Origin: Candidatus Gastranaerophilales bacterium
Lineage (GTDB): Bacteria > Cyanobacteriota > Vampirovibrionia > Gastranaerophilales > Gastranaerophilaceae
Reading direction: 5' to 3'
DNA length: 40,820 bases
Assembly: GCA_944324445.1 (NCBI GenBank)
Contig: CALUWL010000008.1
Location: 1-40,820, forward strand
In this document: positions 20,103 to 31,971 of the stretch, one piece after another
Layout: each line of letters starts with the position of its first letter
Numbering within the stretch: the stretch's first letter is position 1
The notes under the pieces: generated by a model
The model's database searches: none
Told to the model about the DNA's origin: nothing
Seen by the model: the letters and a program-made list of their open reading frames with translations, nothing else
Position numbers and translations under genes: made by a program

Positions 20103-20114
20103 TTTTTAATTTTT

Positions 20115-20143
20115 AAAAGCCCCTCAATTGAGGGGCTTTTTTT
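20115..20143 (+). terminator. Strong intrinsic terminator after adk
   Basis: A perfect 26-base palindrome (AAAAGCCCCTCAA and its complement, 20115-20140) ends in seven T residues. With A residues on the left arm, it can terminate in both directions. It closes the ribosomal/secY block. Confidence 0.92.
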
Positions 20144-20194
20144 AATAAACCAAACAGTCTGAGCATAATTATATATCTAATATAATTCCTTTGT

Positions 20195-20244
20195 AATGTA
20201 TTATTGACTATACAATTTTTTTATAATCTAGTCAATAATACATT
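20195..20244 (+). promoter_or_regulatory. 16-bp inverted repeat flanking a -10 box: candidate operator of the AbrB-like gene
   Basis: The left arm AATGTATTATTGACTA (20195-20210) and the right arm TAGTCAATAATACATT (20229-20244) are exact reverse complements. The 18-nt space between them holds TATAAT (20222-20227). A TTATTG 15 nt upstream of the -10 is a possible -35; TTGACT inside the left arm is only 12 nt away. A transcript from this -10 would start near the right arm and carry a leader of about 45 nt to the AbrB-like gene. A second TATAAT lies at 20181-20186. Confidence 0.6.
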
Positions 20245-20279
20245 TTATTGGACTTATATTAACATTTCAAAGGGCATAT

Positions 20280-20600
20280 ATGAAGAAAAAACTAAAACCA
20301 AGCGGAAATGGCTGGGTGCTCTATTTTCAAAAGTCTTTGCTCAAACTTCTGGGATATAAACCTGACGAAATTAAAATTTTAATTGTAGCTAAAAACTCTT
20401 GTCTTTATTTTTCACCTGTTTGCAAAGATGAGTTAGATAAATATAAAAATAATATGGTCAGGAATTTTCAAAAAAGCGGCGGCGGATATGGAATTTATTT
20501 GCCTGCAGCTTTAATTGATGTTTTAAATGTTGATCCTGCAAATGATTATATTTATGTTGAAATTGACGAAGATAGGGTGATAGTCAAAAAGGCGCAATAA
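20280..20600 (+). CDS. Tandem AbrB/SpoVT-like DNA-binding protein
   Basis: 106 residues built from two similar swapped-hairpin units: about 5-47 (SGNGWVLYFQKSLLKLLGYK) and 62-105 (SGGGYGIYLPAALIDVLNVD). Each has the family pattern of a short strand, an 'xxLPxxLxxxLgi' helix and two closing strands. AbrB-type units normally dimerise; here two are fused in one chain. AAAGGG lies 7 nt before the ATG. A long perfect inverted repeat containing the likely promoter sits 35-85 nt upstream, which suggests self-regulation. No antitoxin-toxin pairing is visible, since the next gene is map. Confidence 0.7.
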   Translation: MKKKLKPSGNGWVLYFQKSLLKLLGYKPDEIKILIVAKNSCLYFSPVCKDELDKYKNNMVRNFQKSGGGYGIYLPAALIDVLNVDPANDYIYVEIDEDRVIVKKAQ

Positions 20601-21396: not shown

Positions 21397-22050
21397 TTAT
21401 TGATTTAAAGCTTCCAAATACATTTCATAAAGTTGATTAATGTTTTCTTGGTTGTTTGTACCATCGATTAAATACCACAGGAACTCTTCACTACTTGATA
21501 AAATATCTATTTTGCCGTCAAATACTCCTGTTAGATTTCCTTGGTATTCTTCGCCAACCTTGGTTACTGTGAATTGGTCTAAATTTTTATATAAACTTGC
21601 AAATTCATCTGCACTTAATGTGCCTGAGGAGTCTGAATTTCCCATTCCTTCATCCATCATTTGAAACATAAAATGTGCCATTGCATATCCTAAGGCAATT
21701 GTTTCAATTGTATCATCTTTGTCTATATTTTTAAGTTCGCTATCTAAATATTCTTCAAGGCTGATTTCTCCGTCTTGGTTTTGATCCATAGTGGCAACTT
21801 CGCCTTCACCCAGTTTTTGAAGTTGTGTGTTGTAATCTTGTTCGTTATTTGCGTTTTTACCTTCCATAAAATCGTATTCAAATCCGATTTCACTTCCTTG
21901 ATTAAAGTATTCTGCTAATATTCCTTCTTCGCTTAATCCTAATTTATCTTTTTTATTTAATAAATTTTGTGCTGCAAGGTCATTAATTTCGTGTTTTTGC
22001 TGCCAAGTTTTCATATTGTCATAAACTTGAACACCTGTAATAGTTGTCAT
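21397..22050 (-). CDS. EF-hand-type calcium-binding protein, function unknown
   Basis: 217 residues, acidic, with no signal peptide or membrane helix. A canonical EF-hand loop appears near 88-99 (DQNQDGEISLEE) and a second, less perfect one near 139-150 (SDSSGTLSADEF). The N terminus MTTITGVQVYDNM and C terminus LYEMYLEALNQ match no family I know. AAGGAG is upstream. It diverges from the coiled-coil gene at 22203; a regulatory Ca2+ sensor or surface-structure component is possible but unproven. Confidence 0.65.
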   Translation of the reverse strand: MTTITGVQVYDNMKTWQQKHEINDLAAQNLLNKKDKLGLSEEGILAEYFNQGSEIGFEYDFMEGKNANNEQDYNTQLQKLGEGEVATMDQNQDGEISLEEYLDSELKNIDKDDTIETIALGYAMAHFMFQMMDEGMGNSDSSGTLSADEFASLYKNLDQFTVTKVGEEYQGNLTGVFDGKIDILSSSEEFLWYLIDGTNNQENINQLYEMYLEALNQ

Positions 22051-28574: not shown

Positions 28575-30242
28575 TTAAGCTTCAAAAAGCTTATAGAGTC
28601 TTTCTTCTATAATTTTATTATCTAGTTCATTTTTTTCTTTGTTTAAATTGAGAGCTTTTTGATACTGTTTTGCAGCTGTAATTTTTTCTCCCATTATTTC
28701 ATGGCTTCTTGCAAGGTTAAAGTGCGCAAGAACGTAATTCGGGTTGATTTCTGTTGCTGTTTTAAAGTATTCTGACGCTCTGTTTGCATCTCCGAGTCCA
28801 TCAAGAAATACGACGCCCAGATTATTATACGCTATATCATAGCTTGGATCGAGCTCGATTGCTTTTGAATAGAATATAATAGCTTTTTCAATACAATCTT
28901 TTTCCCAATATGCCATAGCAAGGCGAGAATATATTTTCGGATTGTTTGTATCTTCATTTAATGCTAAATTGTAGTATTCAATGGCATTATCGAGTTTTTC
29001 AATGTCATAATATATATCTGCTATTGCTTCATGGATTTGAGATTTGTTTTTTGTTAGAAGCAAGCTGTTTTGCAGCATAGAAATTGCTGCTTCTGAGTTT
29101 CCTTTAATTTGGTGGTATATTGCAGCAAGTGCTTGTGCTACAACAGATGACCATTCGTCATTCGGGTTTGCTTCCAGTGCTTTTTTATATAATTCAATTG
29201 CGCTATCGTATTGTTCTAATTGAACATAAGCATACGCAAGAGAATTTTGATAATATGGGTTATTTTCGTCATATTTTAGGGCTAGCTTAAACGCACTTAG
29301 GGCATTTATTTTTTCGTCTTTTTTTAAATATAAATGCCCTAATTCATAGTAACATTTTGAAAGTTCGGGGTATTTGTTAGCTAGGATGGTATAATAATCT
29401 ATTAATTCATCTATTTTATCGCTTTGAAATTCTTCAATGTATTCAATTGCATTAACGACTTTCATAGGGTCGTTATCAGATAAAATAACAACATTATTTA
29501 AGCAATCAAAAGCGATATCATGACGATTTTTTTTGATTGCAATGCGAGCCATTCTTTCATATAGGCCTATTGATTTTTTTGAATTATCTACAGCACTTAA
29601 GTATACATCGTATGCTTTTTTTTCGGAATTGATTTTTTCAAAAAATTCACCGACTGCTCTATATTTAGCAAAGTTGATATCATCCATTATGTTTCTTGCA
29701 AGCATTTTAATGCTTGCTTTATCAAACATGCTCATCAATGTTCCGGTTAAGCCGTAGTATATAGCGCCTGTGAGGTCTTTAACTGTGTCTTTTCCTGCAT
29801 GGTTTTTAATCTTTTCAAGACAAGTGAGTGCAAGGACAAGACGAGTTCTTGATGTTGCTGGTTTTAATTTTATAGCAATTTTAAATTCTTCTTTTGCTCT
29901 ATCAAATTCTGAATTCAAAGAAAGGAAATATCCCAAATACATGTGAGCGTTTGCATCATTCGGATTAATTCTTACTGCTTTGGAACACTGTTCAATTGCG
30001 CTTTCAACCCCGATTTGACCGTTTTTGTGCAAAAGTGTCGCAAGTCTGTAATAAGCGCTTGTTTGGTCGGGGTCTTCTTTTATTGTTTCTATGTAGCAAT
30101 TTATAGCGGTAGTTAAATCTTCGTTTGTTGCTTTAAGAAGATACCTTTGATGAGCCGCAACTGCCATTTCCAGTGTTTTTTCAGAATTAGTCATTTTCGT
30201 ATCGTCTTTTCTTTGGGGAAATTTAATTTTTTGTTTTAACAT
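28575..30242 (-). CDS. Large TPR-repeat protein
   Basis: 555 residues, soluble, with tetratricopeptide repeats throughout. Clear units include YYRLATLLHKNGQ, NAHMYLGYFLSLNSEFDRAK, SAIELYKKALEANPNDEW, KAIIFYSKAIELDPSYDIAY and ASEYFKTATEINPNYVLAHF. The ATG at 30242 has AAGGAT 6 nt upstream; a later ATG (MTNSEKTL) is an alternative. It is the first gene of the TPR-TPR-GGDEF run, 22 nt before the second. No targeting signal is visible. Confidence 0.8.
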   Translation of the reverse strand: MLKQKIKFPQRKDDTKMTNSEKTLEMAVAAHQRYLLKATNEDLTTAINCYIETIKEDPDQTSAYYRLATLLHKNGQIGVESAIEQCSKAVRINPNDANAHMYLGYFLSLNSEFDRAKEEFKIAIKLKPATSRTRLVLALTCLEKIKNHAGKDTVKDLTGAIYYGLTGTLMSMFDKASIKMLARNIMDDINFAKYRAVGEFFEKINSEKKAYDVYLSAVDNSKKSIGLYERMARIAIKKNRHDIAFDCLNNVVILSDNDPMKVVNAIEYIEEFQSDKIDELIDYYTILANKYPELSKCYYELGHLYLKKDEKINALSAFKLALKYDENNPYYQNSLAYAYVQLEQYDSAIELYKKALEANPNDEWSSVVAQALAAIYHQIKGNSEAAISMLQNSLLLTKNKSQIHEAIADIYYDIEKLDNAIEYYNLALNEDTNNPKIYSRLAMAYWEKDCIEKAIIFYSKAIELDPSYDIAYNNLGVVFLDGLGDANRASEYFKTATEINPNYVLAHFNLARSHEIMGEKITAAKQYQKALNLNKEKNELDNKIIEERLYKLFEA

Positions 30243-31925: not shown

Positions 31926-31971
31926 AATTACCTTCTTTTACTATAATTATAGCACATTAAAGAAGGTAATT
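31926..31971 (-). promoter_or_regulatory. 13-bp inverted repeat with extended -10 in the loop and ribosome-binding site in one arm
   Basis: AATTACCTTCTTT (31926-31938) and AAAGAAGGTAATT (31959-31971) are exact reverse complements, 20 nt apart. On the minus strand the spacer contains TGCTATAAT (31946-31954), predicting a start near 31939. The transcript would then begin with the arm carrying GAAGG, the ribosome-binding site of the 86-residue gene. In read-through RNA from the upstream gene both arms are present and the arm is followed by T residues. Confidence 0.6.

Follow-up and report, generated by a model that had tools for sequence, protein, structure and literature searches.

The gap upstream of a tandem AbrB-type regulator gene in a gut bacterium related to cyanobacteria probably (about 70% in our estimate) holds a two-operator autoregulatory switch, in which a MraZ-like protein would act on two overlapping divergent promoters. 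The proposal, drawn from sequence comparison, places two inverted sites of ~27 bp, each at the predicted start of one promoter: a good minus-strand sigma70 promoter, and a weak plus-strand one whose TATAAT -10 would drive the regulator. Since each site begins at a predicted start, protein on both would block the start or escape of RNA polymerase at both promoters. By this blocking the regulator would limit its own level and keep the divergent unit switched off, which in sister lineages is usually a protein gene (often a HAD-like phosphatase); here it would be a short stretch running to the adk terminator, possibly a small RNA. The regulator's weak promoter might be both activated and repressed, as at pLS20, and looping between the sites is conceivable. 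The analysis shows the sites with their conservation and confinement, the motif of the minus promoter and the predicted protein fold; binding, repression, the transcription starts, looping and the RNA are all things that we infer. The features are as follows.

20110-20200, minus strand: predicted divergent transcript of ~90 nt, placed from the position of the minus promoter, box A and the terminator fold
20116-20144, strand not set: terminator hairpin between adk and the regulator gene (inverted repeat 20106-20127/20128-20149)
20144-20165, minus strand: box A, candidate small-RNA segment, 5'-TGCTCAGACTGTTTGGTTTATT; in the six-species alignment 20 of its 22 columns do not vary
20177-20203, minus strand: left putative operator site (inverted copy), at the predicted minus-transcript start; second-best match in the window to the leave-out motif described below
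20195-20210, plus strand: left arm of the perfect 16-bp inverted repeat, AATGTATTATTGACTA, exact reverse complement of the right arm
20207-20212, minus strand: TATAGT, the -10 of the minus-strand promoter; L008 has TATAAT after an N16 spacer
20222-20227, plus strand: TATAAT, a putative weak -10 for the regulator, lying between the -35 and the -10 of the minus promoter; identical in the six species
20229-20244, plus strand: right arm of the perfect 16-bp inverted repeat, TAGTCAATAATACATT; holds the minus-strand -35
20230-20235, minus strand: TTGACT, the -35 of the minus-strand promoter; present in each of the six species, equalled by 2 of 300 shuffles
20236-20262, plus strand: right putative operator site, just 3' of the predicted plus start; best match in the window to the leave-out motif
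20270-20274, plus strand: Shine-Dalgarno-like AAGGG, near-invariant across six species
20280-20600, plus strand: ORF of 106 aa, tandem AbrB-type regulator (MraZ-like fold)

The inverted repeat and the paired sites

The first-pass annotation had described the two 16-nt arms as exact reverse complements, longer than chance allows. Their coordinates and 18-nt spacing were verified, and the pair is the longest perfect inverted repeat of the window, the whole 40.8-kb stretch of DNA analysed here (spacers of 3-60 nt). No inverted repeat of at least 16 bp arose in 20 dinucleotide shuffles of the whole window, and none longer than 13 bp in 2,000 shuffles of the intergenic gap. Two further perfect inverted repeats in the window, both of 13 bp with a 20-nt spacer, lie within a TPR-like ORF (29297-29342) and between two minus-strand genes (31926-31971).

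The perfect arms form the centre of a longer, imperfect pair (20178-20210/20229-20261; 33 nt, 85% complementary). Its inner parts are the less conserved, with 62% and 75% of columns invariant among six species, and the innermost TTGAC of the left arm reads ATAAC, TTAAT or TTAAC in L006, L008 and L009. Because these bases drift in three of the six species, perfect 16-bp symmetry is not the conserved feature. The loss of symmetry, together with the overlap of the minus-strand -10 by the same innermost bases, might suggest that the repeat arose incidentally, through chance and AT-richness or from promoter parts mirroring each other by accident; this is scarcely credible, as shuffles never attain 16 bp and the outer arms are kept across genera.

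What is conserved is the pair of ~27-bp sites further out, both present, in inverted orientation, in six of six related species that carry the regulator gene. Invariant columns in the six-species alignment amount to 92% in the outer left arm, 94% in the middle, 83% in the outer right arm and 91% in box A, compared with 6-19% of the four-fold degenerate sites in secY, adk, the regulator gene and map. The arms stay upstream of orthologues in sister species and also, among unrelated genes, in other genera: the orthologues there, of 50-59% identity, have different neighbours, and most have paired inverted sites, among them a perfect 21-bp inverted pair in L078/L088. In L082-L088, scanning with the right arm of the clade retrieved an inverted site roughly 101-111 nt before the start codon (matched by at most 5 of 300 shuffles). 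As an independent test in the reverse direction, a motif built from other genera only (the leave-out motif) was scored over the window: the right arm ranked first (24.8) and the left arm second (15.0), the third position reaching 10.7. In L086 and L087 the left site was found and its right partner had no clear match. The operator was seen only in orthologues of about 50% identity and above and was not recognised in the distant members L091-L104, where divergence or another mechanism may account for its absence. An exact 72-bp arm spacing in distant genera was considered and dropped; in homologous register the two sites together span 86 bp in the window, 87 bp in L084 and 89 bp in L082/L088.

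To what extent the sites are confined to this locus was assessed with an arm profile, model R1. In the whole genome, R1 gave the right site as the best match (E=3.5e-6) and the left site at E 9.7e-4, both being members of its training set. Each of the six carrier genomes has two significant sites, both at the regulator locus, and no site below E 0.06 was found in three non-carrier genomes. With the window arms in the training set, the telling result is the absence of other sites and of any site in the non-carriers. No further significant copies were found that would make the operator a repeated genomic element, and no exact match to the middle motif was found in viral contigs. The lack of another significant site in the genome suggests that the regulator's range through this motif is probably very local.

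Altogether, the autoregulatory two-arm operator of the earlier annotation stands in so far as the sites are conserved beside orthologues, with no other convincing site in the genome; the conserved units are the outer sites and not the exact arms. It is important to note that conservation alone does not identify the binding protein. The arms might be bound by a different host regulator, the tandem-AbrB gene being merely one target, a reading that could draw on a 28-bp right-arm-like stretch upstream of an OmpR-type response regulator gene (G000 contig 35, 9657-9684; L003, L024; 89% identity, E 6e-4). However, that stretch has an E-value of merely 0.75 with the operator model and is for this reason possibly a chance match, while the sites accompany the regulator gene through differing neighbourhoods, have no significant counterparts elsewhere and are absent from non-carrier genomes. 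We consider control by another regulator unlikely and favour the tandem-AbrB protein itself as the ligand.

The repeat might also act in RNA, as a stem-loop of the mRNA leader serving attenuation, processing or translation control. The plus strand does fold well (z -5.9), but a good fold is a trivial consequence of an inverted repeat. The pairing is no better than with randomly dealt partners (81/500), the covariation term counts against a stem, the arms in other genera flank a promoter and are separated by as much as 51 nt, and the predicted plus start puts the left arm outside the mRNA. Variation without covariation favours DNA sites and makes an RNA hairpin highly unlikely.

Predicted overlapping promoters and the putative divergent unit

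The arms had been taken to enclose the -10 box of the regulator gene. Both TATAAT boxes mentioned in that account were located, one between the arms and another upstream at 20181-20186, and the enclosed one is invariant; the main enclosed promoter, however, lies on the minus strand and points away from the regulator gene (TTGACT-N17-TATAGT, 20235-20207). Scored with textbook E. coli frequencies, this sigma70 promoter matches the consensus at 10 of 12 positions and is equalled by at most 2 of 300 shuffles in each of the six species. Most of the other members of the family that were checked have a comparable minus promoter, which in L104 is a perfect TTGACA-N17-TATAAT. The best minus-strand score in L082/L083 falls at a different position, and by the sigma70 score none was found in L087, L089, L091, L093, L100 and L011. 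In almost every member the promoters of the plus strand score no higher than shuffles, and the TATAAT has no better-than-chance -35. Given its invariance in the clade, it may serve the regulator gene as a -10 lacking a good -35, a weak one at best. The usual spacings predict a plus start at ~20234 and a minus start at ~20200, relative to which the right site would span about +2 to +28 and the left site about -3 to +24.

Two elements of the locus were unexpected: a promoter that points outward and, behind it, a conserved block specific to the clade, box A. In other lineages a divergent ORF, towards which the minus promoter points, often begins 60-131 nt from the regulator's start, and among 26 loci examined these ORFs include HAD-like phosphatases (7 loci), two prepilin-like genes, small ORFs and others. 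HAD-like phosphatases of ~110-126 aa were seen divergent from the tandem-AbrB gene in L082, L083, L088, L092, L099, L100 and L103, which makes the two a recurrent pairing. No divergent gene was found in front of the minus promoter in the window, where only the adk terminator lies ahead. A hairpin occupies that terminator position in all six species, with differing stems; its T-run is good on the plus strand and variable on the minus strand of the six-species alignment, being poor on the minus side in L005 and L007. On the predicted minus transcript the terminator fold has a z of -3.5, and the terminator may possibly serve transcripts from both sides.

We tentatively suggest that, where sister lineages have a divergent protein gene, the minus promoter here yields a clade-specific small RNA of ~90 nt (20200 to ~20110) whose working segment is box A. 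Acting from the paired operators, the tandem-AbrB protein would control both this RNA and its own gene. Of 383 genomes of the family, the six carriers alone contain box A at 0-1 mismatch. Matches with three mismatches in other genomes were about as many as with a reversed control and were discarded; none of the seven such loci inspected was similar to the context of box A or to the locus here. A coding start (minus-strand MLRLFGLL) was likewise rejected for box A: the ATG is absent in L005, third codon positions are conserved and there is no Shine-Dalgarno sequence. Searching its own genome for the complement of box A, as small-RNA targets would have it, gave 80 matches against 56 for the control, with no clear target, and the region has no Rfam match at any family's gathering score.

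The regulator protein and its setting

The downstream gene had been said to encode two fused AbrB units, which the structural analysis supports. An AlphaFold2 model of the 106-aa chain (pLDDT 94, pTM 0.83) contains two successive AbrB-type units, and MraZ chains head the structural match list with Z 8.5-10.1, well above the rest. The best is MraZ 9r4j (Z 10.1, 2.8 A over 92 residues, 16% identity); Foldseek gives MraZ a probability of 1.00 with a weak E-value of 0.084. The AbrB/MazE structures 1yfb and 1mvf score Z 3.5 over 44-50 residues. In Pfam and NCBIfam every family match of the protein is sub-threshold, MazE_antitoxin in Pfam being at E=0.018 (residues 64-104). The MraZ family PF02381 was found in neither the protein nor the whole genome, a search that was positive in 7 of 14 control genomes. 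The model thus gives the protein an AbrB/MazE/SpoVT-type DNA-binding fold with two units in one chain; by the same model its architecture is MraZ-like, yet its sequence lies outside the MraZ family.

Genes in the window run secY, adk, terminator, regulator, map. The regulator gene sits between adk and map in 6 of 28 genomes of the same genus examined (six species), and in G004, the sole non-carrier with a recovered adk-map junction, map lies directly 3' of adk. The tandem-AbrB family is sporadic, occurring in 58 of 383 genomes of the order (E 1e-12). No toxin gene was found beside the regulator gene, its neighbours being adk and map, and PADLOC gave no match for the protein.

Comparison with known systems

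The design had been proposed as possibly undescribed, a view that does not hold: MraZ is a known case of tandem AbrB units acting on their own promoter (PMC7761207), and Rco of pLS20 one of operators paired about divergent promoters that overlap (PMC4207663). MraZ, which also has two AbrB-type units in one chain, regulates its own promoter via repeats that lie 3' of the -10 and extend over the start (PMC7761207). The putative binding sites here are conserved and confined to one locus, and their predicted placement, 3' of a -10 and at a start, is similar. In contrast to MraZ, the protein lacks a PF02381 match, its gene lies between adk and map, after secY, and not at the head of the dcw cluster, and two inverted sites around divergent promoters replace a single array of four direct repeats with a 10-bp period. 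At pLS20, a strong promoter and the weak promoter of RcoLS20 are divergent and overlap, two opposed operators lie ~75 bp apart, and the weak promoter is both activated and repressed (PMC4207663). The window resembles this in its predicted divergent, overlapping promoters, of which the strong one points away from the regulator gene and the weak one would serve it, and in its two opposed putative operators. The RcoLS20 operators, however, are arrays of CAGTGAAA, with one located at a distance from the promoters, and looping, supported for pLS20, is only a possibility here; the comparison covers promoter and operator layout. AbrB of Bacillus and MazE-type antitoxins have the same AbrB-type unit, but a single one; unlike in those systems, an adjoining toxin gene is absent here and the sites occur at a single locus. 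The bipartite AbrB pseudo-consensus TGGNA-N5-TGGNA (PMC11497800) resembles the 11-bp-spaced ATTGTAC/ATTGGAC pair in the L082 and L088 arms.

The analysis describes a probable operator for a regulator family that is above threshold in none of the libraries searched, and no papers on AbrB-like regulators in this uncultured gut-bacterial order were found in the literature searched. The locus makes it possible to test directly whether two mirrored sites let a MraZ-like tandem AbrB protein hold two divergent promoters, and points to a possible small RNA in place of a divergent gene. Elsewhere in the order, two adjacent tandem-AbrB genes each were seen in G183 (contig 5, 953-1594) and G254 (contig 10, 13381-14096). 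In the window, a gene for an EF-hand-like calcium-binding protein (21397-22050, minus strand; Pfam matches sub-threshold) is convergent with map.
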